From positions 1 through 41,308 of the forward strand of contig SUVY01000019.1 of NCBI GenBank assembly GCA_015061775.1: a stretch of 41,308 bases of DNA, given 5' to 3'. The stretch is from Lentisphaerota bacterium (GTDB taxonomy: Bacteria; Verrucomicrobiota; Lentisphaeria; Victivallales; Victivallaceae). Below, piece after piece: positions 1,948 to 36,216 of this stretch. The translations under genes were made by a program, and so were the position numbers. The notes under the pieces were generated by a model, which ran no database searches, was not told the DNA's origin, and saw nothing but the letters and a program-made list of their open reading frames with translations. How positions within the stretch are numbered: position 1 is the first letter of the stretch; each line of letters begins with the position of its first letter.

Positions 1948-1988
1948 AAAAAAGAGGGGCGTTTTACCGTTATTTCAGTAAAACGCCC
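1948..1988 (-). terminator. Rho-independent terminator of the giant-protein unit
   Basis: A perfect 11 bp stem, GGGCGTTTTAC (1957-1967 paired with 1978-1988), is followed on the minus strand by a T-rich tail (1948-1955). It lies about 50 bases beyond the stop codon of the 2809-residue gene and marks the end of that transcript. Confidence 0.85.
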
Positions 1989-2038: not shown

Positions 2039-5000
2039 TTACGCGATGATAGCGAACTTGTTGTCCTTGACATCGGTCGCGATGGAGCTTCCCAGACTGG
2101 TGATGCTTGAGAGGTCTCCGCCGTTTGCGAAGTAGAGGCCGCCGTAACCGCTGGTGAGCTCGCGGAGCAGCAGGTCTTCCTTGCCGTCGCCGTTGTAATC
2201 GCCGACTGCGGAAATCTCCCACTTGCTGTCGTTGAGAGTGCCGATCACGGTCTGCTCGTCGTTCTTGCCGTTCTCAAGCAGGACGACTTCGCCGTCGTTG
2301 CTGTTCCACATGGCGATATCGTCGATTCCGTCACCGGAGAAGTCTCCGATCGCGGCAACTTCCCAACCCTCAACTGCCGGAGTGATGGTGACTTTGCCCC
2401 ATCCCCACTTCTTGCCGTTGATATTGGAGTTGTGCCACATCTCGTAGCTTCCGTCGGTGAGGTTCTTGACAACCAGACTGTCAAGTCCGTCCTCGTGACC
2501 GAAGGTACCGGCTCCGATGAGCTCGACGGTCGGAGGAGCATCGCTTACGTGCCAGATATCCTTGTAGGTGGCGGCGCCGAGAACAGCTCCGAAGCTGCCT
2601 TCGGTGTTGTAGATGAGGACATCATCAAATCCGTCGCCGTCGAGGTTGGCGGTGCACTTGGTCGAAAAGTCGCTCTCGACCCAGCAGAGGGACTTGTAAC
2701 CGTGAGTTGCGTTGCTGAGATCGGTCCAGGCTGCGAAGGTGTTGTTGACCTTGTTGTAGAGCAGCAGTCCGTCGTTGTCAACGGTGCTTCCGGCGAACTT
2801 ACCGGTAGCGACGATATCCCAGATATCAGCCATTCCGTATCCGACTGAGACCCACTTGGCAGAGCCGTCAACATCGGTTGCGATGTAACCGGCAGCACCG
2901 CGTCCGGCATCCCAGGCGACGATCTGTGAAACTCCGTTGTCGAGCAGTTTTGCTCCGACCTGGAGATTGATGGTGCTGGTCTCGCTTGAGACGCGGTTTC
3001 CAGCCTTGTCGTAGGCGGAAACGGTGATGCTGTACTTGCCTTCGTCAAGATCAAGGAAGTCAAAGCCGACAGCCTCGCCGGTGACCGGGAACTTGAGGTT
3101 GTAAACCTGACCGTTGCACTCGATCTCGTATCCGGCGACACCGGTCTCGTCGGTTGCAATCCAGGAGACATTGATGTCCTTGCCGGCGACAGAGGTGAGC
3201 ATATCGATCTTGGGAGCGGTGTAGTCCGCAACGTCGGCTGCGAAAGCATCGGTGGTGTACTTGGTGGTCTCGCCGTAAGCATCGGTGACGGTCATGGAGA
3301 CGTTGAGTTTTCCGGCTGCCGGAACGTCGGTGAGAGTGAACTCAAGGCCGTTGGCAACTGCGTTGAACTCTTTGCCGGTGCTGTCGGTGACGGTGTAGCT
3401 GTAGGTGTAATCCTCAGCACCGCTTCCTCCGGTGATATCGGCTGCGACGGTAAAGGTGTAGGTACCGGCAGTCTGAGTGACAGAGGTGATTGCTCCGGAG
3501 ATCGGAGTGTAATCGCTGTCTGAGGTGCTGAGCACGATCGCGCTGTCGGTGATCTCGACATCATAGAGCTCGTTGTTGATGACAATGGAGTTGTCAGCGC
3601 AGGTCGAGCCGTTGATGACCAGAGTCTTGATATCGGCCTTGCCGCTGTAAACCACGATGTCCGCATCGGTCGGAAGTTCGACACCGGTCAGGACGATGGT
3701 GTCGGCAGTCAGGGATCCGGAAACGGTGTTCCAGGTCGCGGTGACAGTTCCGGACGCGTTTATCATGCCGTCAACGGTAAGCGCGGTATCCGCAGAGAAG
3801 ACGGTTCCGTCGGTGACGGTGATATCGCCAACGACATTCGCCTTGACGGTGCTGTTTCCGGAAACGGTGACTGAACCGTAGTTGTAGAGGGTAACTCCGA
3901 CGCTGAAGTTCGAGTCATCGACAGTAATGCTGCTGCCTTCGTTGACAAGGACGCTGTAAAGCGCGTTGAAGTTGGCATTGTTCTCAACAGTAACAACACC
4001 CGCTGCACCATTGTAACCAATCACCAGCTTGTCCTGCGGAAGATCAGTATAGCTGCTGCCGTATCCGCAACGTGAAACCGTGACGGTCGCATCGTTGACG
4101 GTAAGCTTACCACCGCTGCTCTTACCGATGACAACAATGCTGTTGCTTGAGCCGCCGATGGTGTACTCTGCACCGTTCTGGACGATGACCTCAGCCTCGA
4201 CACCCATATCGTCGTTCTTGTAACCGATCTGGACTTCGCCGGAAAGCTTGGCGTTGTCGAGGATGACTTTACCCATGACGTTCATGGTGTTGATCTGATT
4301 GTTTCCGGTGGTGTTGGCGATGGTAAGAACTCCGTCGCGGCGGACGCTGACGTCAGCGGAGTAGAAGACCTTGTCGGTGGCTTCGCCATCGGCATCACCA
4401 AAGGTGACGGTGTTGGCTCCGGCAACAAGGCTGTCATAACCGATAATCATCTGACCGCCGACGCTGACGTTACTGTCAGTACCGAAATCGACGCTGCCGT
4501 CGAATGACTCACCTTCCCAGTCTCCGACAAAGGCATAACTTGCCTTGAAGTCTCCGGAGTAGGTGTTGTCGCCCTCGAAGATGACACTTCCCTTATTGAT
4601 ATTGGACTCGGTGAGCTGGGCATCAGCGATATTCAAAGTTCCGTTGAGGTTGGCGACGCTTACGCTGCTGGCACCGGTGACATTGAATGCACCATTGCCG
4701 ACCGAAACTCCGTTGAGGGAGATTTTTCCATCCGCGACGTTGATCGTACCGTTGGTGACGGTGGTCTCGGCAGTGACGACGTTTGTTCCGTCAACGATGG
4801 TGAGGTTGTAAGTGCCGTCAGCGAGGTCATTGGTGTAGAACTTGACGCCGGTCTCTCCGGCGGCGACGGTGACTGTGCGGATCAATCCTTCGGTTGCTCC
4901 AGCGGGCATAAGCGCGACGGTGAGCTCACGGGCGTCTCCGGCGGTAAGTCCGTCGAAGATGAGGTAGGCACCGAGATTGACAGTTCCCTCTGAGGTGAAC

Positions 5001-8000
5001 TCGCCGCCGACTTCGATGACACCGGTGTTGTTGATAACGGTGTTAGCATCGGCGTTGAAAGTTCCATCCACGTCAAGTTTTGCTCCGTTGACCACGTTAA
5101 GAGTGTTCTTGGACTGACCTTCGGTGGTGTTGATGTTAAGCTCGCCGCCCTCGGCAACGGTGAGAGAAATCTCGCTGTTGTCGAGTTCAAGATTACCGAT
5201 AAGGTTCTCTCCGCAGGAGGCGTCGGTGGTGATGTTCAGTTTGCCGTCAACGTTGACTTTGCCGTAGTTGGCGAAGATGCCGTCAACACCGTTGTATCCA
5301 CCGGTGACGTTGAGTTCGCCGTCGATATCAAGCTCGCCGCCGGGCTGGACGTAAGCGTTGGCAACGCTGACTTTTCCGGCTTCGGCAATGGTGAGTTTAT
5401 CGTTGGCAGCGACGCCTTCGGCGAACTCATCCCATGAACCGACGGAAATCATTGAGGCGTCAATGGTGTCGGCAATGGTGGTGTCGCCGGTGACTTTGAT
5501 GTTTCCGGAAGCGTTTTCGCCCTCGCCCTTGACCATTCCGGCAAGAGTTCCGTTGAAGTCATTGAGCTCGACAACGTTGTTGTTGACGAACTTGGTTGCG
5601 CTCATGGAGGCGTTGGAACTCAGTTTGATGTATCCATCGTTGGTGAAGGTGCGGTTGTTCATATCAACGACACCATCCTGTCCGACCAGAATCTCACCCT
5701 GGTTGTCGAAGTATCTCGGAGTGAGATTTGCGTAATCGGCATCATCGGTGAACTCAAAAGTTCCGTCGGTAATGTTGAGGACGTTGTTTTTTCCGTTGCG
5801 GAAAGTGACCGCCGCGGTGGTGATTTTACCTCCGTTGATGATATCGACGCTGCACTCGTTGGGAGCATCAATCCAATCCACGCTGGTGTTGCCGCCGCCG
5901 AAGTTGATCTGGTTGTGTTTGACGTTGAGAATACCCTCGCCGTCTTTTCCGTCAACGATCAGGTGACCGTCCCATCCGCCGTTACCGGGAGTACCGACAC
6001 CGGCGAGTTTGGGAGCATCACCGGCTTTGCCGAGCTCCATGGTTCCGAGCACGGTGACAGTACCGTGGTTCTCGATGTTTCCGGCATCGGCTTTGAGCAG
6101 ACCGCCAGCATTGATGACCAGCTCTCCGGGAGTGCTGTTCATTCCCCAGAGGTAAATAGCTTTATTGCCGCTGTTGGCGTTAGCGAAATAGAGTTCGCCG
6201 TTGACGATGAGTGCGCCGCCCTGGTTGTTCGCGCCGGAAAGTCCGGTCAAAGTCAGAACTTTGACTTTGGCATCCTCATCAATCACGAGATCAACACCCA
6301 TGTTGACGATTCGGTCAACGACGGCGTAGCCCTCTCCGGAGGTCTTGACGACGAGGTCCTGAGTCGGACGAAGCTTACCGTATTCGGCACTGTCTGCGTT
6401 TCCGGCAGCAAGTACGATTTCGGTGGTATCCTCAGGAAGGATGAGCAGGTTGCTCCAGCCGCTGCTGTTTTTGCCGTCATCGACGAACTCGCTGAAAGCG
6501 TTGACTCCGAAGACTTTTCCGTCGCCGAGGTCTTCGCCGGCAGTTTTGCCTGCCCATGCGGCATCGTAATAAACAGTCTTGGTGGAGGCGTTGGTGATGG
6601 TGACATCTCCGTCAGCTCCGTAGATAGCGGTGACGCCATCTCCGAGGATGGTGACTTTGCCTTCGAGAGAAGCTGCGGCATTGAGATCAATGACCTTTGC
6701 GATTCCGTCGAGCTCGGTGGCATCGATGACAATGGAACCGGTTCCGGTGATGTTCTTTGCGGTGATAAGGCTGGTGGCATCAATGGTGATGGAGCCGCCG
6801 TTATTGATGGTTCCGACTGTGGTGATGGTCGAATTGACCAGCTCAACGCTGCCGTCGAGAACGTTGGAACCATTGCCTTCTTTACCGAGAAGCAACGCAG
6901 AATCGGTGAGGGATAACGATGTTCCCTCATGCATTGAAAGATAGCCAAAACCATTGGGACCGGTGAGGTCGAGCACAGAATCGTTTTTGGCTTCGAGAAC
7001 CGCTCCGTTCTGAACGTACATCTGTCCGGGCTGTCCATTCGGACCGCCGATGGTCTTCAGCAGAGCGTTGTCCAAAACGATCTTGGCAGATGAGTAACCA
7101 TTGTCAACAGCTGTTCCGAAGTTGATGTATCCGAACTCGGCTGCGGTGTCTTTCACGGTGACAACGCCGGAGTATGTTGAAAGATATCCGGTTGCTTTGT
7201 ACTGAAACTCAGCTTCTTTGCCCTTGCCCGCTTCAGCTGTACCGATAATGCTGATATCAGAACCGTAACGGTTGAAAGTATTGTAGGTCTCAACGCTGCC
7301 GTTGATGGTGGTTTGGGCTCCGTAGCCGTGCCAGAACTGTCCGCCGGAAGCAGACTTCACATTACCATCAATGGTGTTGGTACCCTGGAGGAAAATGTAT
7401 TTGGCATCAACAGTTACACCATCACCGATAGAGGCACTGTTCAGGGTGACATAATCACCATTTACGCTGTCGGTAACGGTAACATCGGTCTCACCGTCTT
7501 TGACGATTTTGCCGGAGAGAGTTTTTCCGCTCAAAGCCTCGGTGACGTTGCTGGCAACGCGGATCTCGGTGGTTTCGGAAGTGGCGGCAGCCAAAGCGTC
7601 TCCGAGAGTCGCGAAGGTGTTGATACCGAAAAACTTGCCGTTTCCGAGGTCTTCTCCGAGCTTCTTGTCTGCATATTCGGCGTTGACAACGAGAGTAGTC
7701 ATCTCGGCGTCTGAGAGAGCGACGTCTCCGTCAGCTCCGTAAATGACATTGACTCCCTCGGCAAGGTTCTCGATGGCGACTTTGTCTTTGAGAGACTCTT
7801 TGCCGTTGAGGTCGATGAGCACCTTGACTCCGGTGGAGTACTCTGCGGCGTCGATGGTGATGGTGCCGGTTCCGGTCAGGGTGTTCGCGGTGATATTTCC
7901 GGTAGCGGTGATGGTGATCGCACCGGTATTTGCCACGGTGTCGGCAACGACATTTCCGGAAACACTCATGCTGCTGCCGGTGTGAACACTCAGAGTAGAT

Positions 8001-10468
8001 GCATCGACCAGTCCGCCTGCGTCAACAGTAAGTGAGGCAGTCATTGCACCCCAGCTTTCGGGCTGTCCGACCCACAGGCTCTTGTCGTGAATGGACTTGC
8101 CGCCTTCGGCAATGGTCAGCGCGCCGCGGACATAATCAAGTCCGTCGCCGGTACCCTGGCTGTGGAAAGTTCCTTTGACAGTAATATCACTGCCGTAAGA
8201 GTAGTACATATAGCCGGTCTCGAAATCGGACTCAATAGTGTATTTACCATGCTGGAAGAAACCGTAATTTGCGGTGATTGTTCCTCCGGTTATGGTGTAT
8301 TCGGCGGAGGCATTGTCTTTGCTGCCGAATGAGAAATTATTGAGAGTAAGAGTTTTGCCCTCTTCAAGAGTCAGAGTTCCGCCATTTTTGCCGGAAATGG
8401 CGGTAAAGCTGTTATCACCGGCAAGGTTGAGATTGCCGAGCATAGACACTGTGCCTCCGACAACACTATCGGTCAGAGTGGTATCGGCTTCTGCCTTGAG
8501 TGCTGAAGAGAGACTCCTGATGTTCAGCTTGCTGCTGCCGGAAACTTTTACCTCACCATCGTTGGTGAGTTTGGTGGCAACTTCAAGAGAACTGTCAGCA
8601 ACCGAGATGGTGTTGTTGGCTCCCAGAGTGAGGTTTGCGACAACCAGACGGCTGCCGTTATTGACGTTGAACACGTTGCCGGAGCTGCTGACAGTAAGTG
8701 AACCTGCGGAATCTCCGCCGCCGATTTTCATTACGGAGTTATCAAGATTGAAAGTTCCGTTTGAACCTGCGACGGTGAACCAGGCGCCTCCTTCAAAGTA
8801 GGTGTCGTTCAAGTTGATGGTGTTGCCGGTTCCGCGGGTTTCGGAGTAACCGGCTTTGAACTGCGGTCCGTCGGTCAATGACTCTTCTTTGGTGTTTTCG
8901 AGAGTTCCGTTGACGGTGAGATAACCGTTGCCGTAAGCCAAATCCAACTGTCCATCGCCATAACCGAGGAAGACTTTTCCGGTCTCATTGACGGTGATAC
9001 CGTTGTTGTTGGTCCAGACTTTCAAGCTGAGTGCCTTCATCTCACCGTTGATGATCATCTCTTCGTTGGAAGTAGCAAATCCGTCGGCAACGACATCAAG
9101 GTTTTCGACGGTCACGCCGTCTTCGATGGTAAGGGAAGCTCCATCGCCCATAACAAGGATCGCAAGTGAACCCGCGCTGACGGTGAATTTGCCGCCGGAG
9201 GCTGCTCCGATGGTGAGCTTCTGGGCGATATCATAATAATTGTCGGTATCAACATTGCTGTTGGTGGTAATATCGCTCTCGATCTCAATGCGGGAGACAA
9301 GGTCATTGTCTCTGGCAGCAGCCATTGCGCTTGCGAAATCGGCGAAGGCGTTGAAACCGAAGATTTTTCCCTCTCCGAGGTCTGCTCCGGCAGCGTATGT
9401 GCTGTTGACGTAAACAGTGGAGGCAGTCGCGCTGTTCACGAGAACTCCGTCATCATAGATGCTGTAAGTTCCCTCGTTGACGACATTGAGTGAGCCCTCG
9501 CTTTTGCCGATGATAGCATCAACATCGTTGCTGGTGCTGGTGATTCCGTTGACCGTGATGCGGTCGTTGGCGGCGGCGGTATTTTCGTTTTTGCTGAAGA
9601 ACAGGTCTCCCTGAAGCAGAGCGGCATCGGTGAAGTTGACTTCGATGTCAGAAGCGTTCCACTTGGTGGCGCCGTTCTTGCGCTGATGGAGGACGCCCCA
9701 TTTCGCCTGCTCGCCTGCGTCTTCGGTAAGAGTGGAGTCGATGTTGAAAACGCAGTCCTCGATATTGACGGCAATATCGTTGGAGCGGATGCAGTAGAAG
9801 CTGTCTCCGACATTTGCATCAGTAACAGTTGCGTTGAAGGTGTTTCCGGAGAAGTTCACTCCGTTTCCACCCTGGATGTTGACACAGGAGTCGTTGAAAG
9901 TACAGTCGGAAATCTCAAGGTCGGTTCCGAAGTTTCCGGAAATCTGCATTCCGGCGTTCTCAAAGGTGCAGTCGGTAATGGTGCTGCCCGGAGTGGTGTT
10001 GTTTCCGCCGGTAGAACCGATTCCGTACTCACCGTCGCCGATGATTGTGCAATCGTTGAGAGCAAATCCGTCAACGCTGTAAACGAGGATGCTGTGAGTG
10101 GCTGCATCAGCGTGATCGAAAGTGATACCGGAAAAATCGACGGCACTTTCCCACTTCTCTACGCCCACGCCTTTCTCATACAAGCCGAGCTGCAATGTTC
10201 CGCTGAAAGTGACGTCTGCACCCTCAGCCGCGACAAATTTGATGTCACCTTTCTGCTCACCGATGACGGAGGCGCGGAAGACGATGGAGTCGTCATAAGT
10301 TCCGCTTGCCACGGTGATGGTGTTTGCCTCAGTTGCAGAAGCCGCATTGACGGCATCGGTCAGATTGCTGAACGCAGTCGTTCCCCAGACTGCATCAGCG
10401 GACTTGGTGGTGTCAGCCTCAAATGCGGCTTGATCGACCCAAGCTTTGTTTACATAAATATTAGCCAT
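2039..10468 (-). CDS. Giant modular beta-helix / FG-GAP propeller protein (2809 aa)
   Basis: A very large, Asn/Gly/Thr/Asp-rich protein, probably a surface or secreted adhesin. Residues 1 to about 2310 are beta-helix-like repeats of short beta-rungs (patterns such as SGNTFNATV, GTITIDATS), punctuated by a recurring hinge of the type YVN..Y....G.DLG.GK.FG.NAF near residues 350, 923 and 1296; the N-terminus MANIYVNKAW is a variant of the hinge. Two Ig/FN3-like domains follow (about 2318-2413 and 2414-2500), the second after AFAADVADYTAP. The last 300 residues form an FG-GAP/VCBS-type propeller with calcium-loop motifs NLDGDGFDD, DFSGDGIDD and DYNGDGKED. No signal peptide or membrane anchor is present, so export must rely on another signal; type I secretion is an inference. 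The start has an AAGGG site upstream. It is paralogous to the gene just upstream. Ligand unknown. Confidence 0.88.
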   Translation of the reverse strand: MANIYVNKAWVDQAAFEADTTKSADAVWGTTAFSNLTDAVNAASATEANTITVASGTYDDSIVFRASVIGEQKGDIKFVAAEGADVTFSGTLQLGLYEKGVGVEKWESAVDFSGITFDHADAATHSILVYSVDGFALNDCTIIGDGEYGIGSTGGNNTTPGSTITDCTFENAGMQISGNFGTDLEISDCTFNDSCVNIQGGNGVNFSGNTFNATVTDANVGDSFYCIRSNDIAVNIEDCVFNIDSTLTEDAGEQAKWGVLHQRKNGATKWNASDIEVNFTDAALLQGDLFFSKNENTAAANDRITVNGITSTSNDVDAIIGKSEGSLNVVNEGTYSIYDDGVLVNSATASTVYVNSTYAAGADLGEGKIFGFNAFADFASAMAAARDNDLVSRIEIESDITTNSNVDTDNYYDIAQKLTIGAASGGKFTVSAGSLAILVMGDGASLTIEDGVTVENLDVVADGFATSNEEMIINGEMKALSLKVWTNNNGITVNETGKVFLGYGDGQLDLAYGNGYLTVNGTLENTKEESLTDGPQFKAGYSETRGTGNTINLNDTYFEGGAWFTVAGSNGTFNLDNSVMKIGGGDSAGSLTVSSSGNVFNVNNGSRLVVANLTLGANNTISVADSSLEVATKLTNDGEVKVSGSSKLNIRSLSSALKAEADTTLTDSVVGGTVSMLGNLNLAGDNSFTAISGKNGGTLTLEEGKTLTLNNFSFGSKDNASAEYTITGGTITANYGFFQHGKYTIESDFETGYMYYSYGSDITVKGTFHSQGTGDGLDYVRGALTIAEGGKSIHDKSLWVGQPESWGAMTASLTVDAGGLVDASTLSVHTGSSMSVSGNVVADTVANTGAITITATGNITANTLTGTGTITIDAAEYSTGVKVLIDLNGKESLKDKVAIENLAEGVNVIYGADGDVALSDAEMTTLVVNAEYADKKLGEDLGNGKFFGINTFATLGDALAAATSETTEIRVASNVTEALSGKTLSGKIVKDGETDVTVTDSVNGDYVTLNSASIGDGVTVDAKYIFLQGTNTIDGNVKSASGGQFWHGYGAQTTINGSVETYNTFNRYGSDISIIGTAEAGKGKEAEFQYKATGYLSTYSGVVTVKDTAAEFGYINFGTAVDNGYSSAKIVLDNALLKTIGGPNGQPGQMYVQNGAVLEAKNDSVLDLTGPNGFGYLSMHEGTSLSLTDSALLLGKEGNGSNVLDGSVELVNSTITTVGTINNGGSITIDATSLITAKNITGTGSIVIDATELDGIAKVIDLNAAASLEGKVTILGDGVTAIYGADGDVTITNASTKTVYYDAAWAGKTAGEDLGDGKVFGVNAFSEFVDDGKNSSGWSNLLILPEDTTEIVLAAGNADSAEYGKLRPTQDLVVKTSGEGYAVVDRIVNMGVDLVIDEDAKVKVLTLTGLSGANNQGGALIVNGELYFANANSGNKAIYLWGMNSTPGELVINAGGLLKADAGNIENHGTVTVLGTMELGKAGDAPKLAGVGTPGNGGWDGHLIVDGKDGEGILNVKHNQINFGGGNTSVDWIDAPNECSVDIINGGKITTAAVTFRNGKNNVLNITDGTFEFTDDADYANLTPRYFDNQGEILVGQDGVVDMNNRTFTNDGYIKLSSNASMSATKFVNNNVVELNDFNGTLAGMVKGEGENASGNIKVTGDTTIADTIDASMISVGSWDEFAEGVAANDKLTIAEAGKVSVANAYVQPGGELDIDGELNVTGGYNGVDGIFANYGKVNVDGKLNITTDASCGENLIGNLELDNSEISLTVAEGGELNINTTEGQSKNTLNVVNGAKLDVDGTFNADANTVINNTGVIEVGGEFTSEGTVNLGAYLIFDGLTAGDARELTVALMPAGATEGLIRTVTVAAGETGVKFYTNDLADGTYNLTIVDGTNVVTAETTVTNGTINVADGKISLNGVSVGNGAFNVTGASSVSVANLNGTLNIADAQLTESNINKGSVIFEGDNTYSGDFKASYAFVGDWEGESFDGSVDFGTDSNVSVGGQMIIGYDSLVAGANTVTFGDADGEATDKVFYSADVSVRRDGVLTIANTTGNNQINTMNVMGKVILDNAKLSGEVQIGYKNDDMGVEAEVIVQNGAEYTIGGSSNSIVVIGKSSGGKLTVNDATVTVSRCGYGSSYTDLPQDKLVIGYNGAAGVVTVENNANFNALYSVLVNEGSSITVDDSNFSVGVTLYNYGSVTVSGNSTVKANVVGDITVTDGTVFSADTALTVDGMINASGTVTATWNTVSGSLTADTIVLTGVELPTDADIVVYSGKADIKTLVINGSTCADNSIVINNELYDVEITDSAIVLSTSDSDYTPISGAITSVTQTAGTYTFTVAADITGGSGAEDYTYSYTVTDSTGKEFNAVANGLEFTLTDVPAAGKLNVSMTVTDAYGETTKYTTDAFAADVADYTAPKIDMLTSVAGKDINVSWIATDETGVAGYEIECNGQVYNLKFPVTGEAVGFDFLDLDEGKYSITVSAYDKAGNRVSSETSTINLQVGAKLLDNGVSQIVAWDAGRGAAGYIATDVDGSAKWVSVGYGMADIWDIVATGKFAGSTVDNDGLLLYNKVNNTFAAWTDLSNATHGYKSLCWVESDFSTKCTANLDGDGFDDVLIYNTEGSFGAVLGAATYKDIWHVSDAPPTVELIGAGTFGHEDGLDSLVVKNLTDGSYEMWHNSNINGKKWGWGKVTITPAVEGWEVAAIGDFSGDGIDDIAMWNSNDGEVVLLENGKNDEQTVIGTLNDSKWEISAVGDYNGDGKEDLLLRELTSGYGGLYFANGGDLSSITSLGSSIATDVKDNKFAIIA

Positions 10469-10514
10469 TTTTTATCCCTTTGTTATAAGAATAACAATAT
10501 TGAACACATGATCA

Positions 10515-10552
10515 GCCGCACTCGCGGAAGTTTTTCATTCCGAAAGTGCGGT
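10515..10552. other. Intergenic hairpin between the two giant genes
   Basis: An imperfect 13 bp stem (10516-10528 with 10539-10551, 11 of 13 paired) lies in the 96-base gap between the two giant genes. On the minus strand no T-tract follows, so it may be a partial terminator, a processing site or an mRNA-stabilising stem rather than a true end of transcription. Confidence 0.4.
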
Positions 10553-10564
10553 GCGTGCTTTATA

Positions 10565-13500
10565 TTACGCGAGGACGCTGAACTTGGTTCCGTTGCGGTC
10601 GGTCTCGATGCGGGCACCGAGATCGTTCCAGTCACCGGCGTAAGCACCGCCCCAGTAGCCGAGTCCGCCCCATCCGGTGGTGGTTTCGCGGAGCAGGAGA
10701 TCCTCTTTGCCGTCGCCGTTGTAATCGCCGACAGCAGCGATCTCCCAGCCGGACTGATCGAGGGCACCGACCCAGCGTTTGGTGTCGGCATCGCCGTTCT
10801 CCCAGGCGTACATGTAGCCGGTGGACTCCTGCCAGACCACGATATCGTCGATACCGTCACCGGAGAAGTCGCCGATAGCGGCGATGGTCCAGTCGTCTTC
10901 GACTGCCGCGAGGGTGCTGGTGCTCCACTCGCCGACGGTGCCGTTGACGCTCCAGAGCTCGTAGTTCTCGCCGTTCTTGACGATCAGGCTGTCATTATCG
11001 GTGCCGAAGTTGGCTCCGCCGATGACCTCGACGCCGCTGCCGAGCTGGACATACTTGGCTCCGTCGATGGAAGCACCGAAAGTTCCGTCCTCATAGCTGA
11101 CCAGCAGGTCGTCGTAACCGTTGCCGTCGAGATCGGCAATTCCCTCGACGGTGAAGCCGTCCTTGAGGTAGCCGTATGACTTGTAGGCGTATCCGGAAGC
11201 TCCGAGATCGGTCCAAGCCCAGAGGCTCTGGTTTGCGGAGTTGTAAACCAGGATTCCGTCGCCCTTGCCGGTGCTGCCGGAGAAGCATCCGACCGCAACA
11301 GCCTTGTCGGCGGCATCAGCTCCCCACTGCCAGAGACCCTTCCAGACGGGTTTGGTCTCGCCGTCGTTGTAGATGTATCCGATAGCACCGCGTCCGGCAT
11401 CGTAAGCGACGATCTGTGAGTAGCCGTTGCTCTTGATGTTGGCGGCGACGCTGATGGAAACAGTCTGCTCTTCGGAGGTGACTTTGTTTCCGGCGGCATC
11501 ATAAGCGGTGACGGTGTAGGTGTGTTTGCCCTCGCCGATATTGTTGAGAGTGAACTTGGCATCGCTGCCCGCGGCATCGAAGGAGTAGCTGGCTCCGTCG
11601 AAGACGATATCGTAAGAGGTGACTCCGGTGACATCGGTGAAGCTGCAGGTGATAGTGACGCTGCTTCCCTTGACGGTCGCCTCAGGTCCTTTGGTGAACT
11701 CAGGAGCGGTGTAGTCGGCAACATCAGCGGCGAATGCGTTGGTGGTGTAGGTGAATCCTGCCTCGTCGGTGACGGTCGCGGTGACGTTGATGACTCCGGC
11801 GGCGGGAACTTCGCTCAGGGTGAAGCTGGTTCCGTCGAAGGTGAGGTCAAGTGCGTTACCGGCGGCATCGGTGGCGGCGAAGCTGTAAGTGTAAGCTCCG
11901 AAACCTCCGGTGATGGCGGAAACATCGACGCTGAAGGTGTAGGTATCGGCGGTCTGGGTGACGGCTGCGATATCGCCGGACATCGCGGTGTAGTTGGCGG
12001 TGTCGTTGACCAGCACGATTCCGGTATCGTCAATAATGGTCTTGTAGATCTGCTGATCGACTCCGATGACGGAATCGATGGCAGTAAGTCCGTTGATGAC
12101 GAGACCGTTGCAACTGGCATCGGTGACACCGGAAACCAGAGTGACGGTCTCACCTGAGCCCGGAAGAGTGACATTGTCGATGGACAGCGTTCCCTCGACC
12201 GAGAGAGTCTTCGCAGAGGCAAGTCCGCCGAGATCGAAGGAGAGGTCTCCTGCGGCGGTGACGTCTCCGTCAACGGTGAGCACGGAGCCGGTTCCGAGGA
12301 CGGTGTCGTCGGTGAAGCTGACTGCGCCTGTGACTGCGCTGGTGACCTTGCTGTTTCCGGAGATCTCGAGAGTTCCGTTGCCGACATTGAGGGTTCCGGC
12401 GGTGAAGTCTGAGTCTGCCACGGTCATAGTTCCGTTGGTGACGGTGACGGTGGTGGCAAAGACATCACCGGTGGTGCTGTCGATCACGGTCGCGTTATAG
12501 GTTCCATCCGCGAAGTCCTGAGTATAGATAGTCGCGCTGGTGCTGTTCTTGGCGACAGAGAGGTTGAAGGTCTTGCCTTTGCTCTCGCCGACTCCGACCA
12601 TGGCGACGATGACGTCGCGTGCGGAATCTGCCACGGCGGTAAATCCGTCGATGGTGATGTAGTCACCGAGAGTGACATCGCCGGTGAACGCGAAGGTGCT
12701 GTTTGAAACGTTGATGGCTCCTGCGTTCTCGATCCTGACACCGTTGACAGTTCCCTCGGAAACGTTGACTTCGCCCTCGTTGAAGAGGATTCCGCCCCTG
12801 GTGGGATCATTCTTGTTCGCCTCACGCTTGGTGATATCGAGCTTGCCGCTGACGTTCAAAACGCCGCCTTCGTGGACCAGGGCGTTGTGTCCTTCAACGG
12901 TCACATCGGCGGTGGAGTTGATGTTGGCAACGCCTCCCTCGAAGATCTGGATGAGCTTCTGTCTCGGATCGCTGTGGGTGAGGTTCATCGTACCGTTGAT
13001 ATCGGCATTGCTCATCACGTTGAAGAAGCGGGTGTTGAGCGTTGCGCCCTCCTCGAGAGTGAACTCGCTGCCGACTCCGACGATCGTGGTGCTGCCGGTG
13101 AACTCGGAACCTTTCTTGATGGTCGCAGCGCCGTAGAAGTTGGTCTGCTTGACATCAAGAGTACCGTCGAGGACGATGTCTCCGTAAACGCGGATGTTGC
13201 CGCCGATCTTAGAGTCTCCGACCAGAGTGGTATCCTCGAAGCGGACGTAATTTCCGCTCAGAGTTTCGATATTGATGGTGGACTCACCGCTGACGGTGAT
13301 GGTACCCTTGTTGTTGACAGTACCCGCGCTGAATTTGGCTCCGTTGATTTCGACAGTACCTGCGGCGGCGACGTTGACGATACCGGCAGCCTCAACTTTG
13401 GCTCCGTCCTCAACGATCAGGGCTCCGTTGGTGACAGCGATGTCGGATTTCCAGGATTCGGGTTTCTGGATAGCGGTGGTGAGAGAGGCTTTCTCGCCGC

Positions 13501-16500
13501 TCAGGGTGAGAGAACCGCCCCTGTTGATGATGAGCACATTGCTCTGCATGGTGTCAAGTCCGGACATCGCACCATAGCTGATGACCTCATCATAGATGGC
13601 ATACTGTCCGCTGTTGCTGGAAGCAAGAGAGAGAACGCTGTCCTCGGAAATGATGGCTTTTCCGCCGAGGAACTGGATGTTCTCTGCGGCGTTGAATGTT
13701 CCATCGATGTTGAAGACGGTATCCTCGGCTCCGACGAAGCGGATGTGTCCGGTGTAAAAGGCGACGTCGCCGAGCTCAGCGTCCCAATCGGCGCGGTCGA
13801 GGGTCGAATAGTTGCCGTTGACGAAGACATCACCTGCGGCGGAAGTCTCGAAGACGAGGCATCCGACGGTAATAACGACGTCGCCGGAAGCATTGACGGT
13901 GGTAACTCCGTCCTTCATGACCGAGACGTTCTCGGTGGTGTTGTAGATGCTCTCATAGTTTCCGCCTGCGATATTCAGAGTGGTGGTATCGGCAGTGGTC
14001 TTGTAGTCGAGCAGAGCTGAGAAGGCGTTGTGGCCGATGATGTAACCCTCGTCGGTGACGTCTCCTGCTTTCTTGTCAGCCCAGGCGGCGTTGACATAGA
14101 CATCGCTGACGGCGACGTCGGTGAGGTAAACGTCTCCGTCTGCGGCGTGGACGACAGAGATTCCTTCTCCGTTGACGGTGACCTTGTCGGCAAGAGCTCC
14201 GGCAGTGGAGGTGATGTCGATGATCTTCTTGTAGCCGCCTTCAAAGTTTTCGGCGTCAATGACGATCGAACCCTCACCCTTGATATCAGCCGCGGTAATG
14301 GTGCTGGTTGCATCAATGGTGATGGTTCCCGCATTGGAAACAACTCCCGTAGAGTTGACTTTTGCTCCGTTATTCAGGAACACCTCGGTTCCAGCGCCGA
14401 TATTGAAGGCGACGGAATTATTGACAACGGCGGAAGTATTGACGGTGGAGCCGTCAACCGTAAGTTTAACGGTGTAATCGGTTCCCTCAACGGTGGTCAA
14501 TGCAAGGTTTCCGGCGGTGAATTCAGATCCGCCCTTGATGATGACATCAGCGTAACCGCCTGCGACACCAGCATTGTAGCTGCCGAGGCAGACGTAAGAT
14601 CCAGCGTTCCAGATTGAATTGTCAACAACAACCTGATCTTCAGCATCAGCCAAACGGAAATAAGTATTAGTACCGCCAACGATATTCAGAGTACTGTTGC
14701 TGACATTGGCAGCTCCCTGCAGGAACATATAGCTGTAATCAACATCAGCGTTGGTGATATTGAGAACGGAATTGGCAAACGTTCCGATCTGACCGCCGTT
14801 GAAGTCGGTTCTTTCGGCATCGGCAGCTCCGATGGAGACAACTGAAGTATAGTCGCCGCCCCACAGAAGCATATTGCTGTTGTTGAACTTGCCGGTAATG
14901 TTGACAGCGATATCACCGACACCGTAGTTGTTATAACCCGCGCTGAAAATACCAGTTACGGTATTGGTGCCCTGCCAGGTGCTCTCTCCGGACACGATAT
15001 CGATCCGACCGCCGATTTTGGAATCAGTGACCGTAGTTCCGTCAAGGACTTTGATGGCTTTGCCGTCAACTTTGTTGATGTTGAGAACAACATCACCATT
15101 GACCTCAACGGAGTCGTCGCCTTTGTTGAAGAGGGTGGATGCGACAGAGAAGTTACCTCCGTCGATGACCAGCTTGCCGTCGGCTTCAACATTCATGCTC
15201 TCGGCGACGGAGACAGTTCCGCCGTTGATGTTGAGGCTGCCGCCTCCCCAGATGTTGATATCTGCCAAGGCGGCAACATTGTCGATGTGATCGGCAATGA
15301 TTTCGCCGGACACATTGACCGCACCGCCGCTGAAGATACGCAAACTTGCGGTCTTGACAGTTCCATCAACATTGACAACGCCCGCCGCAGCTTCTGAGAT
15401 CTCGCCGTTTTCGACGCAGAACTCAGCGGAGTCGAGAACGGCTCCGGTTTTGACGTTGATGACTCCGTCGGCGTCGGCGTTGGTCTGGTAAACTTTGACG
15501 TTGCCGTAGATGTCGATGGTGCCGCCCTTGGCGTCTCCCTCGTTCTCACCGAAACCGAAGTATTTGTCGTTTCCGGCGGCGAGGTATCCGTAAGCGGTGG
15601 AGTAATTCGCGCCCTCGGCGATGGTCAGAGTTGAACCGTTGGCAACTTTGGTTTTTCCGGAGACGGTGACATCGCCGCTGATGGTCGAGTCGCCATTGAC
15701 GAAGGCGTTTCCGGTGATATCAGTTGCGGAGAGGTTTGCTCCGTTGATCTCGACCGCATTTCCGGTGACGGCGAGGTCAGCGGAAACGTTTCCGGTAAGT
15801 TTGACACTTCCGGAAGTGTTGTCGAAGTCGTCTGAAACAAACGTGGTGTTGGCAATGGTGAAGTTTCCTTCGTTGATGATCTTGGTTGCGGTGAATGCTC
15901 CGCCGTCGATCTCTACATCACCCTTGTTCTTGACATAATCAGCTTTGAACGCCGCTTTGTCGGTAACATTGACGGTTCCTTCGTTATAGAAGGGATATCC
16001 TGCCGGAGTGGATGAGGACATATCAAAGAGTGAGCCCTCTCCGGTCACATTCAGAGTTCCGAAGTTGCCGGTCTTTTCATAGCTGGGACCATCAGCGTTG
16101 CCGCCGACGGTCATCTGGGAGTCGTTCTGAAGAGTGAACTCGCCGACGTTCTTGAACTGCTGGTTGATGGTGACAACTGAGTTATCGACCACCGCAACGC
16201 TGTTGGCATGATTGAAGGCAAAACGGCTGCCGACATTGAACACGCTGTCGGTGATGTTCAAATTGAAGTGCGGGTCAAGTCCATCTTTGGTGGAGGCGGC
16301 AGTCTGGAAATCAGCAGTGAAATCAACGATGCTGTTATCGAAGTTCCAGACGAAGTTTCCGGTAGCTCCGCTGTTTTTGGAGGTCGAGCTGCCGAATGAG
16401 ACATAGGCATTATCAACATCAAGAGTTGCATCCTGACCATCGTAAGTGCCGTCGCCGTTGAATGAGAAGCCGCCTTTGATATCCAGAGACTTGGTGACGC

Positions 16501-19500
16501 TCGCCTTGTCGGCGGTCTTGGCGTCCTCAATGGTTCCGTCAACATCGATGGTGCTGCCGTAGCTCAGGGTGGTGCGGGTGCCGGTTGCGGTCAGGCTGCC
16601 CTCGGTGCCGACGATAAGTTTGTGGTTGTAGTAGCCGACATTCAGAGTACCGACGGTGTTGACTCCCTTGAACTCAGCGGTTCCCTCGAGAGCAACCGTA
16701 CCGCCGTTGATGGTGGAGTCTTTGACAACTGCTCCATCAGCAAGGTCGATGGTTCCGGTGAGAGAGAAGATATCCAGAGTGCTGGTTCCGGAAACGGAGA
16801 TAGTTCCGTTGTTGGTGAGCACGCCGCTCTTATTTGCGGCAGGAATGGTTCCGTTGCCGACGGCATGGGTGTTGGCGATGAAGGTACTGTCATCTATTAA
16901 TATAGTACCGTTGTTGGTGATGTTTCCGCTGGCTTTCAGGACGGAGCCGTTGGTCAACTCGATGACGGCATCTGCGCTGGAGACGTTGAAATCTCCGTAG
17001 CCGTTGGGAATCGGGTTGCTGTGCCAAACGCCGTCATATCCGACACCGAACTCGAGAGCGGAGTTGTCGGCAGTAACTTTGCCTGAACCCTTGAGGCCGA
17101 TACGCTGGTATGAAGCAAAGAGAGTGTCTTCCAGTTCGATTTCGCCGTTGATATTCTGGCTGTACTGGATGAAAACCTGACGGTCGGCAAGCTCTGCCTC
17201 GGAGGCTTTGAAGTCAGCGTTTCCGGAAACGGCAAGTTTTCCGTCGATGTTGAGAGACTCTCTGTAAACGTTGAGCTGGCTTCCGGCTTCGACCTGAACG
17301 GTTGCGCCTTCCATGATTTTGGCGTTGTAGAACTCAAGAGCGGAGTTGCCGTCAACCACGGTATCAGTTCCGAAGTAGAAAGCTTTTTTGGCTTCGGTGC
17401 CGTTGAAGGAGACTCCGTCGAAGGTAACAGCAAGATCTTCTGCCGCGTTCTCGCCCTTGGTGAACCAGACGTAGCCGCCGAGACTTGTCCAGGTGATGTC
17501 GCCTCCGGCAATGGTCAAATCGTCGTTCAGGGTGATGGTGGTGTTGGCAGCGGGCCCCGCTTCGGTGATGCTGCCGATAACTTCGATTTTGGAAGTGGTG
17601 TCGGTAACAGCCGAAAGAGCATTGGTGAAGCTGGAGTAGGCATTGATTCCGACGGTGTAGGTCTTGCCGTTGATAACAACGGTGTCACCATCTTTTCCGG
17701 CGATGCCGCCGCAGACGGTGAGATCGGTTCCCTCGTATGCCTCATAGAGACCGGCGAGATCGTTTCCGTCAACGGTGTTGCCGGAAATAACAGTACCATC
17801 ACCGAGGCGGACGACTCTTTCATCTTTGACATTGGTAATAGTATTGTCGGTGATGACTGCTCCGCCGTTGGTGGTGCGGATTGCGACATAAGCAGTGTCG
17901 CTGATAGTGTTGTCACTGATAACGACACCGTCTTTGACATTGGTGATGTAAATTCCCGCCCAACCTGCGTAATTGGTGTTGGTGGATTTCTCTTCACGTC
18001 CGTAGATGGTGTTGCCGCTGACGGTCATATTGGCGTTGGTCGCACCCTCGGTGTAGATACCGCAGTCGGCGGTGATGGTGTTGCCGGTGATAACGGCTCC
18101 ATCAACGTTGACTCCCCAGCCGAACTGGACACCCTCGGTGCCGATTCCGTCTCCGGTAGCAACACTGGTAAGAGTGCAGTTGGTGACAGAAATTCCGCTG
18201 GCGTTCACACTTCCGTTGGCGTTGATGCCGATCGGAGTGTAGTAACCGTTGGCTTTTTCGACACACTCGATATTCAAGCCGTCAAAGGCGACATCTTTAA
18301 TGTCGGTTGCTCCGCTGTTGATCCAGAACTGACCGGTGATGTTGACTTCGGCATCAGCGGCAGCTTTGATGGTGATTCCGCCGACATAGGTTTTGTCGTC
18401 TTCGGTGAAAGTCTTTTTGCTCAGAACGACAGGTTTTGCCTCGACATAATCTCCGGCAGCGATTTCAATGGTCACTTTGCCGTCGATCGCGTTGGCAGCC
18501 GCAGCAGCCGCGCTGATGGTGGTGAAGGCGTTGACTCCGATAACGTAAGCTTTTCCTCCGACAAACACCATGCTTCCGGCTTCTCCCTCGATCGAGGCAT
18601 CGACCAGCATATTGGAGGCGGGCTCGGCGATGAGCACTTCATTTCCCGCAGCGTCTCCGGCAGAAATGGTTCCGTTAACATTGTCGTAAACCTGAAGTGC
18701 GGAAGCGGCAACGGTGTCGTTTCCATCGTTGCGATCAACAAGGGTGAATTTGTTTCCGGAAATATTCACGCTTCCCTCAGCACCATCTTTGAGCGCAACG
18801 CCCTGATAGATTCCGACGTTTCCATTGGTGATGGTGTTATCGGTGATGACGAGGTCGCGGACATAACCGGAACCGAAACGGATGGCTCCGTAGTACTGGT
18901 GAACATCGCTGACGTTGATGTCGGTCATAGTGTTTCCAGACACTTCAAATGCAGTGTTGTTATTTTGGATATCTGCCGCATGGATCGCGTTCGCACCAAT
19001 ATTGGTGAAGGTGTTGTCAGAAATCTTGACATTGGTATTTTCGTTGTACAGATACACCTTGCCGGTCAGGCTCAGTTGAACAGCGTGTCCGCTGAAATCG
19101 CTGACAGTATTGCCGCTAAAGTTAACGTTGCTGGTGTAAGCTGAGTAAATCGCTCCCATAGAACGGGCTTCAGCACCACTGCCATCGCCTTTGAAGGTGC
19201 AGCCGGTAACGGTCATGTTGTCGATTCCGGGGAAGTTAAGTGTGCAGAAAATTCCGTAACCGACGGAATCGGAGGCTATGCCTGTGAGATCAAAAACGCA
19301 ATCGGTAACGGTGAGATTTGTCAAATCAGTACCGGTCTGATAGATACCGCTGGTGTTGTTATTGGGATAAACGGTGTTGGCGGTAGGCTTGAAGGTAAAG
19401 CCCTGAATGGTGATATCCTGCTCGGTACCCTTGGCGGCACCGACTCCAAACTTATCGACGACCACCGTACCTTCAGCCTGAAGGGTGACTGCCTTGTCAA

Positions 19501-19636
19501 CGATGACTGACTCGTTCGTAAGAGCGTACTCACCGCCTTTGACGATGATGATGTCTCCATCCACAGCCGCTTTCACGGCATCGCTGATGGTTGCGAAACT
19601 ACCGTCTGCGGTTCCGACATAAAGTGTGTTTGCCAT
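10565..19636 (-). CDS. Giant modular beta-helix / FG-GAP propeller protein (3023 aa)
   Basis: Paralogue of the 2809-residue neighbour. The first 650 residues contain clear right-handed parallel beta-helix (PbH1/NosD-like) rungs such as VSGNTMTDI and ISDNTISDT. The hinge recurs near residues 355 (VIGVNAFTTI), 649 (TVGINAYSSF) and 1842 (YIIGHNAFSAL). Long beta-solenoid repeats run to about 2545, then two Ig-like domains, the second after AFAADVADYTAP at about 2630, and from about 2734 an FG-GAP-like propeller with DLDGNGYDD, DFSGDGIDD and DYNGDGKED. The C-terminus ends KFSVLA, matching KFAIIA of the neighbour. There is no N-terminal signal peptide (start MANTLYVGTADG). The ribosome-binding site AAAGGAG is 9 bases from the ATG. 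Likely a secreted or surface-attached adhesin or carbohydrate-binding structural protein; no catalytic residues were recognised, and the ligand and export route are unknown. Confidence 0.88.
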   Translation of the reverse strand: MANTLYVGTADGSFATISDAVKAAVDGDIIIVKGGEYALTNESVIVDKAVTLQAEGTVVVDKFGVGAAKGTEQDITIQGFTFKPTANTVYPNNNTSGIYQTGTDLTNLTVTDCVFDLTGIASDSVGYGIFCTLNFPGIDNMTVTGCTFKGDGSGAEARSMGAIYSAYTSNVNFSGNTVSDFSGHAVQLSLTGKVYLYNENTNVKISDNTFTNIGANAIHAADIQNNNTAFEVSGNTMTDINVSDVHQYYGAIRFGSGYVRDLVITDNTITNGNVGIYQGVALKDGAEGSVNISGNKFTLVDRNDGNDTVAASALQVYDNVNGTISAGDAAGNEVLIAEPASNMLVDASIEGEAGSMVFVGGKAYVIGVNAFTTISAAAAAANAIDGKVTIEIAAGDYVEAKPVVLSKKTFTEDDKTYVGGITIKAAADAEVNITGQFWINSGATDIKDVAFDGLNIECVEKANGYYTPIGINANGSVNASGISVTNCTLTSVATGDGIGTEGVQFGWGVNVDGAVITGNTITADCGIYTEGATNANMTVSGNTIYGREEKSTNTNYAGWAGIYITNVKDGVVISDNTISDTAYVAIRTTNGGAVITDNTITNVKDERVVRLGDGTVISGNTVDGNDLAGLYEAYEGTDLTVCGGIAGKDGDTVVINGKTYTVGINAYSSFTNALSAVTDTTSKIEVIGSITEAGPAANTTITLNDDLTIAGGDITWTSLGGYVWFTKGENAAEDLAVTFDGVSFNGTEAKKAFYFGTDTVVDGNSALEFYNAKIMEGATVQVEAGSQLNVYRESLNIDGKLAVSGNADFKASEAELADRQVFIQYSQNINGEIELEDTLFASYQRIGLKGSGKVTADNSALEFGVGYDGVWHSNPIPNGYGDFNVSSADAVIELTNGSVLKASGNITNNGTILIDDSTFIANTHAVGNGTIPAANKSGVLTNNGTISVSGTSTLDIFSLTGTIDLADGAVVKDSTINGGTVALEGTAEFKGVNTVGTLNVGYYNHKLIVGTEGSLTATGTRTTLSYGSTIDVDGTIEDAKTADKASVTKSLDIKGGFSFNGDGTYDGQDATLDVDNAYVSFGSSTSKNSGATGNFVWNFDNSIVDFTADFQTAASTKDGLDPHFNLNITDSVFNVGSRFAFNHANSVAVVDNSVVTINQQFKNVGEFTLQNDSQMTVGGNADGPSYEKTGNFGTLNVTGEGSLFDMSSSTPAGYPFYNEGTVNVTDKAAFKADYVKNKGDVEIDGGAFTATKIINEGNFTIANTTFVSDDFDNTSGSVKLTGNVSADLAVTGNAVEINGANLSATDITGNAFVNGDSTISGDVTVSGKTKVANGSTLTIAEGANYSTAYGYLAAGNDKYFGFGENEGDAKGGTIDIYGNVKVYQTNADADGVINVKTGAVLDSAEFCVENGEISEAAAGVVNVDGTVKTASLRIFSGGAVNVSGEIIADHIDNVAALADINIWGGGSLNINGGTVSVAESMNVEADGKLVIDGGNFSVASTLFNKGDDSVEVNGDVVLNINKVDGKAIKVLDGTTVTDSKIGGRIDIVSGESTWQGTNTVTGIFSAGYNNYGVGDIAVNITGKFNNSNMLLWGGDYTSVVSIGAADAERTDFNGGQIGTFANSVLNITNADVDYSYMFLQGAANVSNSTLNIVGGTNTYFRLADAEDQVVVDNSIWNAGSYVCLGSYNAGVAGGYADVIIKGGSEFTAGNLALTTVEGTDYTVKLTVDGSTVNTSAVVNNSVAFNIGAGTEVFLNNGAKVNSTGVVSNAGTITIDATSTITAADIKGEGSIVIDAENFEGGYKKIIDITSTAGALADKVTVNGEGISVVHAADGDVYLTDVAVSDVYVNAAWADKKAGDVTDEGYIIGHNAFSALLDYKTTADTTTLNIAGGNYESIYNTTENVSVMKDGVTTVNASGDVVITVGCLVFETSAAGDVFVNGNYSTLDRADWDAELGDVAFYTGHIRFVGAEDTVFNIDGTFNAAENIQFLGGKAIISEDSVLSLASSNSGQYAIYDEVISYGAMSGLDTMQSNVLIINRGGSLTLSGEKASLTTAIQKPESWKSDIAVTNGALIVEDGAKVEAAGIVNVAAAGTVEINGAKFSAGTVNNKGTITVSGESTINIETLSGNYVRFEDTTLVGDSKIGGNIRVYGDIVLDGTLDVKQTNFYGAATIKKGSEFTGSTTIVGVGSEFTLEEGATLNTRFFNVMSNADINGTMNLTHSDPRQKLIQIFEGGVANINSTADVTVEGHNALVHEGGVLNVSGKLDITKREANKNDPTRGGILFNEGEVNVSEGTVNGVRIENAGAINVSNSTFAFTGDVTLGDYITIDGFTAVADSARDVIVAMVGVGESKGKTFNLSVAKNSTSATIYTQDFADGTYNATVIDSTTGDVFATTVTVTNGTMTVADSDFTAGTLNVGNGTLEISGNSKVTSAVTGAVSFTDDTVLGTGSVLTVDGDVTAAGDLSFDLGGLASAKTLSVEGTLSIDNVTLPGSGETVTLVSGVTDASCNGLVINGLTAIDSVIGVDQQIYKTIIDDTGIVLVNDTANYTAMSGDIAAVTQTADTYTFSVDVSAITGGFGAYTYSFAATDAAGNALDLTFDGTSFTLSEVPAAGVINVTATVTDEAGFTYTTNAFAADVADYTAPEFTKGPEATVKGSSVTITCSFTDVTGVTSYDIVFDGASYSFDAAGSDAKFTLNNIGEGKHTYTVTAYDAAGNKVTSEEQTVSISVAANIKSNGYSQIVAYDAGRGAIGYIYNDGETKPVWKGLWQWGADAADKAVAVGCFSGSTGKGDGILVYNSANQSLWAWTDLGASGYAYKSYGYLKDGFTVEGIADLDGNGYDDLLVSYEDGTFGASIDGAKYVQLGSGVEVIGGANFGTDNDSLIVKNGENYELWSVNGTVGEWSTSTLAAVEDDWTIAAIGDFSGDGIDDIVVWQESTGYMYAWENGDADTKRWVGALDQSGWEIAAVGDYNGDGKEDLLLRETTTGWGGLGYWGGAYAGDWNDLGARIETDRNGTKFSVLA

Positions 19637-19773: not shown

Positions 19774-20126
19774 TTATGCCTCAAAAGCATACTTTTCTAT
19801 CATAGCCGCAGGACTGATACCCTTCTCGCCGCAACCATCGGTAACGGCGGACAGACGAATGCGGCACGCGGAGTCTTTCGGATATGCCGTATCCTCTCTG
19901 TCTTGAATGTAAAGCTTGTGTCGGTGACGGTAAGAGTGATACCGTCCGCGGCAAAGAATTTGTAAGCACGGGATACACTGCTCTTCACCACGAAAAGCAA
20001 TCCGCTCCCGAGACGCGGAGCCGCAACTGCGAACAGACGTCCGCTGTCAATGGTCCGCGCCGCGAAAGAGACGGTAAATTCTCTCTCGGGAGCTTCAAAT
20101 ATAAATTGTGTATCCAATGTGCTCAT
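19774..20126 (-). pseudogene. Small conserved-looking gene with an apparent -1 frameshift
   Basis: Translation from the ATG at 20126 gives a natural-looking protein (MSTLDTQFIFEAPERE...) as far as SFTF at residue 74, then an Arg-rich tail of poor quality to a stop at 19800. Around 19905 the -1 frame takes over with typical protein sequence (QDREDTAYPKDSACRIRLS... to MIEKYAFEA) and ends at the stop 19774-19776. The intact product would be about 117 residues. Either a base was lost by mutation or sequencing error, or a ribosomal frameshift is used; no classic slippery heptamer was seen at the junction. It begins 16 bases after the 80-residue gene and lies ahead of the giant genes, so all four are probably co-transcribed. 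No signal peptide, no recognised domain, and only a weak ribosome-binding site. Confidence 0.6.
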
Positions 20127-32761: not shown

Positions 32762-32798
32762 TTTAAACTCCGGTAAATATATTGCATTTCGCATTCAC

Positions 32799-32828
32799 AT
32801 AATATGTCACCAAAAGATGTTTTTTCAA
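32799..32828 (-). promoter_or_regulatory. Promoter for the first MATE gene
   Basis: On the minus strand TTGAAA (32823-32828) and TATTAT (32799-32804) are spaced by 18 bases, about 40 bases ahead of the ATG at 32761. Confidence 0.5.
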
Positions 32829-32867
32829 ACAGCCGATGTAATTTAACAGAAAATAAATATTTTTTCT

Positions 32868-32896
32868 TTGAAAAACGGTCCGTTTTGTTGTATATT
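32868..32896 (+). promoter_or_regulatory. Promoter with a palindromic operator for the second MATE gene
   Basis: TTGAAA (32868-32873) and TATATT (32891-32896) are spaced by exactly 17 bases. Between them a 15-base palindrome AAAACGG-T-CCGTTTT (32872-32886) overlaps the -35 and the spacer, the usual place for a repressor such as TetR or MarR to block RNA polymerase. No such regulator gene is next to it. Confidence 0.6.
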
Positions 32897-32936
32897 TTGA
32901 GCTTACAACAATAAAACTTTCAGGATAAAACAAAAA

Positions 32937-35258: not shown

Positions 35259-35289
35259 AACCCAAAACTTTCAACAAGGAGGATAAAAC

Positions 35290-36186: not shown

Positions 36187-36216
36187 GAACTACAAATAAT
36201 ATAAGGATGATCCAAT

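Follow-up and report, generated by a model that had tools for sequence, protein, structure and literature searches.

Giant Victivallales proteins ending in an FG-GAP propeller are candidate type I secretion substrates

Two neighboring genes in a 41,308-nucleotide stretch of Lentisphaerota bacterium DNA (the window) encode giant proteins, P1 and P2. Our best reading is that both are adhesins or matrix proteins secreted by a type I system, with an FG-GAP β-propeller in the place of the RTX module. The data are best explained by type I export of the ordinary kind combined with an unusual C-terminal module, a reading to which we give a probability of about 0.75. A role in adhesion or in a matrix is most likely, judging by analogy from the domain types present.

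RESULTS

P1 and P2 Are Intact Genes without an N-terminal Signal

2039..10468, minus strand: P1, a 2,809-residue giant, paralogous to P2 over the last ~640 residues (ORF and translation, Pfam, BLASTP, ribosome-binding site)
10565..19636, minus strand: P2, a 3,023-residue giant with β-helix segments, an Ig-like pair and an FG-GAP propeller (ORF and translation, Pfam, ribosome-binding site)
1957..1988, minus strand: predicted intrinsic terminator directly 3' of P1, a 13-bp stem and a T run (consensus match only)

Both reading frames are intact, lie on the minus strand exactly where a first-pass annotation of this DNA had placed them (2039-10468 and 10565-19636), and are separated by 96 bases. 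A purine-rich ribosome-binding site is located 5' of the ATG in each gene. We found no hydrophobic N-terminal stretch in a hydropathy scan (not SignalP) of the first ~85 residues, where the best 15-residue values are 0.64 for P1 and 1.08 for P2. The clear ribosome-binding sites and the lack of a hydrophobic segment bear out the earlier claim that neither protein has an N-terminal signal. On the same grounds we rejected a hidden signal peptide from an alternative start. The two proteins had further been described as sharing one build. This holds for the last ~640 residues, the only region of end-to-end homology in BLASTP (42% identity, E 1e-116), but upstream of it the common parts are scattered β-helix modules only.

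β-Helix and Ig-like Parts

17537..18619, minus strand: right-handed β-helix segment, P2 residues 340-700 (PF13229, AlphaFold2 model and fold matches)
11417..12004, minus strand: P2 Ig-like pair, residues ~2545-2740 (sub-threshold Big_13/MtxA_IG-like Pfam matches, homologues elsewhere)
2894..3436, minus strand: P1 Ig-like pair, residues ~2345-2525 (homology to the P2 pair, fn3-like sub-threshold match)

PF13229 matches P2 residues 470-641 with an E value of 1e-9. A single-sequence AlphaFold2 model of residues 340-700 is of low confidence (pLDDT 57, pTM 0.68) and aligns with right-handed β-helices at Z about 22, its matches comprising β-helix enzymes, tailspikes and the adhesin PfbA (Z about 19-22). 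Profile and model together support the β-helix assignment made earlier. The Ig-like assignment is likewise supported, by the sub-threshold Pfam matches, by homologues of the P2 pair in 13 other genomes and by a moderate-confidence structure model. The pairs of P1 and P2 share 49% identity.

The C-terminal Domain Is an FG-GAP Propeller

10568..11416, minus strand: P2 FG-GAP β-propeller, residues 2741-3023 (PF13517/PF01839, AlphaFold2, fold and profile matches)
2042..2893, minus strand: P1 FG-GAP β-propeller, residues 2526-2809 (as for P2, plus alignments)

The Ig-like pair is followed in P1 and P2 by an FG-GAP (integrin-type) propeller of ~285 residues, which extends to the last residue. PF01839 and PF13517 both score above cut-off, and the predicted fold is that of a propeller. 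The first-pass annotation had proposed a structure prediction of the C-terminus, and for P2 we obtained an FG-GAP propeller with a mean pLDDT of 76 over the model and of about 90 over most of the propeller. Its best fold match is UmbA4 (9oee_A, Z 22.1, 280 residues). Other matches are to propellers including lectins (Z about 13-15); with the lectins 4tqm, 5mb4 and 2bwr (Z about 13) the model aligns up to its last residue. The model contains 24 strands from model residue 183 on, the last at residues 460-462. This suggests about six four-stranded blades, with the final three-residue strand predicted to complete the first blade. A profile of the domain matches the integrin α-V propeller (E 1e-5), and a sequence search of solved structures with P1 and P2 gave nothing useful.

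The domain thus has FG-GAP repeats, DxDGDGxDD-type loops and the fold in common with integrin-like FG-GAP proteins such as integrin α-V, UmbA4 and the Psathyrella-type lectins, the likeness to the last being one of fold only. Unlike in those proteins, the propeller here is the C-terminal module of giant bacterial proteins, and the strand count suggests six blades. The earlier description of a C-terminal domain with a calcium motif, on proteins of a surface or secreted type, is supported.

A Family Defined by Its C-terminus

At least 14 proteins of the source genome carry the propeller domain at their extreme C-terminus, with otherwise different N-terminal parts; the assembly is 2.70 Mb in 107 contigs, and the count is a lower bound. 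This is as expected of a sorting or export module. The two genes, first taken as a unit, are both present, but they belong to this larger set. AIDA stalk repeats occur in at least one other family member of this genome (one was checked), and among members with a readable start none has a convincing signal peptide. In a relative, an FG-GAP-ended protein without a signal peptide (L070:7577-10465, plus strand) has an N-terminal part resembling a C39-type cysteine peptidase (PF13529). Full-length copies of the domain are found elsewhere in the genus-mate G172 (nine) and in G119 (one). Shorter related versions in other Victivallales often end in WTVIA, and FG-GAP homologues in other phyla (Streptomyces, Acidobacteria) lack the exact [FW]-x-[IV]-I-A-type end.

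The Conserved Last Residues

10568..10582, minus strand: P2 terminal pentapeptide FSVLA, predicted to form the strand that closes the propeller and possibly part of an export signal (motif statistics, model)
2042..2056, minus strand: P1 terminal pentapeptide FAIIA, predicted closing strand and possible part of an export signal (as for P2)

The matching C-termini KFAIIA and KFSVLA reported earlier are real, as is the FG-GAP domain (PF01839, PF13517) that they end. A terminal [FWY]-x-[IV]-[ILV]-[AS] is present in 39/42 FG-GAP-ended proteins versus 1/774 other ORFs. The conserved end [FW]-x-[IV]-I-A is probably the propeller's own closing strand, because most FG-GAP repeats likewise open with a strand of the pattern [FW]-x-[IV]-x-A (97 of 120 GDF/GDY loops). 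We therefore rejected the motif as sole proof of an export signal. In type I substrates a hydrophobic motif at the extreme C-terminus has been described, and its necessity is disputed (PMC2642768, PMC3430570).

The recurrence of the pattern within the repeats speaks for an alternative in which the propeller has its function outside the cell, as a lectin-like domain or a calcium-stabilized adhesion tip, the end is simply its closing strand, and the type I signal lies elsewhere or is unconserved. Alignment of the model to its last residue with the three lectins and UmbA4 is in line with this, as are some FG-GAP homologues of other phyla that also stop soon after a W-x-hydrophobic strand. However, isoleucine at motif position 4 is specific to the end (39/42), versus mixed residues inside the repeats, and a terminal [ILMV]-Ala is enriched in giants lacking the propeller too. 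It is found in 39/42 FG-GAP giants, 10/22 other giants and 19/1,084 other ORFs, the giants having been picked by length and composition, including some doubtful ORFs and not being phylogenetically independent. We give this alternative slightly less than an even chance. As read from sequence, the conserved end is ambiguous: it is a structural closing strand, yet [ILMV]-Ala also marks propeller-less giants. The earlier proposal that the matching ends are an export signal keeps the latter enrichment in its favor, but the evidence is weaker than it seemed, as the motif recurs within FG-GAP repeats.

The Source Genome Encodes a Type I System

The first-pass annotation had noted that no transporter accompanies the genes. 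This holds for the window, but an HlyB/HlyD pair and TolC-like proteins are encoded elsewhere in the genome. On contig 23, an HlyB-type ABC transporter adjoins HlyD. The latter matches TIGR01843 with 281 bits (cut-off 209), and the transporter has TIGR01846 (HlyB) as its best match with 642 bits, below the cut-off of 726, and contains a PF03412 C39-like domain. Two OEP (TolC-like) proteins are found on contigs 27 and 89. P1 and P2 thus combine the lack of an N-terminal signal peptide with HlyB, HlyD and TolC components in the genome, though unlinked; that the exporter is not beside P1 and P2 is a point against the type I reading. In an observation of its own, this HlyB (L047:4922-7474, minus strand, contig 23) has an extra ~140-residue N-terminal stretch resembling a second C39-like domain, and many relatives share this extension.

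RTX repeats are the usual mark by which type I substrates are recognized. Pfam found no GGxGxDxLx repeats (PF00353) in P1 or P2, nor anywhere in the source genome. The genome also contains no autotransporter barrel (PF03797) and no type IX sorting domain (Por_Secre_tail, PF18962). Type V export was rejected on the missing barrel, the lack of a signal-like start and the propeller at the C-terminus; type IX export was rejected on the missing sorting domain and, again, the start.

A further ABC transporter was considered. Directly downstream of one family member (the L022 member, contig 73) lie genes for an RbbA/YhhJ-type ABC-2 transporter and an HlyD-like protein (L022:3149-8126, minus strand). 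We rejected this HlyD-like gene as a linked type I system, as it belongs to the ABC-2 transporter. The exporter could still be such a pair, either this one, which has its place beside a family member in its favor, or an MsbA-like ABC protein with an HlyD-like protein on contig 25; both systems are present in the source genome. With scores of 64.5 and 47.6 bits, neither HlyD-like protein attains the 209 bits set as cut-off for type I HlyD, no C39-like domain is reported in either ABC protein, unlike in HlyB, and the exporter-adjoining giants of relatives sit by a canonical HlyB/HlyD pair. We consider export by either pair unlikely.

Related Giants Carry RTX Modules

In sibling genomes, parts homologous to P1, P2 and their family are joined to other C-termini. 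Residues 301-1250 of the 1,539-residue L022 member match a protein of G171 (L212) with an E value of 0.0, the homologous stretch spanning 980 residues at 37% identity, but that protein ends in RTX repeats. The P2 Ig pair has a homologue in a giant of G101, where it is followed by RTX repeats, and HlyB/HlyD are encoded about 3 kb away from this giant. A 4,882-residue giant of G165 with another C-terminus matches P2 over residues 4-510 (E 4e-33) and in the Ig pair. More generally, same-class giants (L199, L209, L212, L215, L267) have homologous N-terminal parts, an Ig pair or an AIDA stalk, and in many cases an [ILMV]-Ala end, but RTX or other sequence at the C-terminus where P1 and P2 have the propeller. 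RTX matches are absent from the source genome and from G172, both of which have the full FG-GAP family, and present in 13 of 34 genus members. Type I systems export RTX proteins via a C-terminal signal that is not cleaved (PMC3034196). Together with the module swaps, this indicates that the propeller occupies a position filled in relatives by an established type I module. A 4,486-residue protein at L214:2526-15986 (plus strand) combines an AIDA stalk, RHS repeats and a C-terminal RTX module.

Linkage and Co-occurrence with HlyB/HlyD

Among roughly 38 type I loci that we read, those of G084, G111, G112, G114, G135 and G153 have a giant lacking a signal peptide at a distance of 16 bases to 2.1 kb from HlyB or HlyD (a raw count), and the giants of G111, G112 and G135 contain the FG-GAP domain; most loci have no giant alongside. 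Type I genes are present in 24/29 genomes with the FG-GAP domain versus 94/169 without (Fisher 0.007, shared ancestry ignored), and in 10/11 versus 108/187 when only strong FG-GAP matches are counted (p 0.05, shared ancestry ignored). In the test for a co-occurring exporter proposed earlier, type I genes are thus commoner in genomes with the domain, but a few genomes with domain matches have none detected.

The first-pass annotation had suggested C-terminal export by an undescribed route dedicated to this protein end. C-terminal export remains plausible given the RTX-ended relatives, but a private route is not needed, because an HlyB/HlyD pair is present in the genome and related giants end in RTX or other modules. 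The window without an exporter speaks for such a route, as do five domain-matching genomes in which type I genes were not detected (G069, G088, G108, G116, G170). Those genomes are drafts, 72-92% complete, however, a type I system is present in the source genome and in both others with the full-length domain (G172, G119), and siblings have RTX repeats joined to homologous N-terminal parts. We regard a dedicated route as quite improbable.

Two Small Genes Upstream of P2

20143..20385, minus strand: orf80, a conserved 80-residue protein upstream of P2 (relatives precede giants or flank HlyB/HlyD)
19800..20126, minus strand: orf108, a small ORF between orf80 and P2 (position and size only)

Relatives of orf80 occur in 127/198 genomes of the class. 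Type I genes are found in 101 of these 127 versus 17 of the 71 others (Fisher 1.7e-14, shared ancestry ignored), leaving 26 genomes with orf80 in which none were detected. In G144, G158 and G090, too, orf80 and then a small ORF come before a P2/P1-like giant; G156 has a less strict form of this arrangement, and in G101 the gene immediately before the RTX giant is orf80. Close or divergent relatives adjoin HlyB/HlyD in G054, G104, G117, G119, G120, G123, G135 and G185. orf108 has no BLAST match in the loci searched; RL-ended ORFs of similar size occupy the same place in other genomes. The only Pfam match of the small ORF pair is very weak (DUF3467-like, E 0.08).

DISCUSSION

In the type I reading, P1 and P2 would be made without a Sec signal, each with a β-helix stalk, an Ig-like pair and a C-terminal calcium-motif propeller. 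They would exit in one step through the contig 23 HlyB-type transporter and HlyD, together with one TolC-like protein (contig 27 or 89). The propeller would hold the place of the RTX module, bear a signal at or close to its very end that is not cleaved off, and fold extracellularly once its DxDGDGxDD loops bind calcium. Outside the cell, the proteins would most likely serve in adhesion or in a matrix. The sequences themselves show the genes, the domain common to at least 14 proteins, starts unlike signal peptides, the exporter genes, the exchange of C-terminal modules among genomes and the nearness of giants to HlyB/HlyD in relatives; we infer the movement of P1 and P2 by the contig 23 exporter, the calcium-triggered folding and the adhesion. 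The sharpest uncertainty, on a reading from sequence, is the propeller itself as carrier of the putative export signal. In a broader and tentative form, to which we give appreciably less than even odds, the Victivallales propeller would be an interchangeable type I export and calcium-folding module that takes the place of RTX on passengers of like kind, with a shared terminal [ILMV]-Ala signal and with orf80 and orf108 as accessory factors of the giant substrates. That P1 and P2 instead stay and act inside the cell would agree with their lack of an N-terminal signal peptide, but relatives with AIDA stalks, β-helices, Ig-like domains or RTX fusions are of extracellular types, and the L070 relative with an FG-GAP end has a C39-like peptidase passenger; we consider an intracellular role highly improbable.

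Among known systems, RTX and giant non-fimbrial adhesins (LapA/BapA type, SiiE) resemble P1 and P2 in being giant and repetitive, in lacking an N-terminal signal and in having calcium-binding motifs. They use an HlyB/HlyD/TolC-type exporter, as encoded in the source genome and adjacent in some relatives. Unlike these adhesins, P1 and P2 have no GGxGxDxLx repeats, end in an FG-GAP propeller and are unlinked to the exporter. AIDA/Ag43-type autotransporters (PF16168, TIGR04415) share AIDA stalk repeats with at least one other family member of the source genome, but the proteins here have no signal peptide, and a C-terminal barrel is missing from them and from the genome.

In the literature that we searched, we found no paper that treats FG-GAP domains as modules of type I export or that deals with Victivallales substrates of such systems, and a study of type I-related proteins in the PVC group (PMC4452313) does not mention FG-GAP or Victivallis. 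Should the propeller giants leave through that kind of exporter as well, gut Lentisphaeria would have a whole class of secreted surface proteins, at least 14 of them in the source genome, that is being overlooked. With RTX and propeller exchanged naturally on a homologous N-terminal part, type I C-terminal recognition could be tested directly, to tell whether the exporter reads the fold, the binding of calcium or the final few residues.

Elsewhere in the window, two divergent MatE-family transporter genes adjoin each other (31403-34319), and three TPR-repeat protein genes of similar size stand in a row (34389-37116, plus strand).
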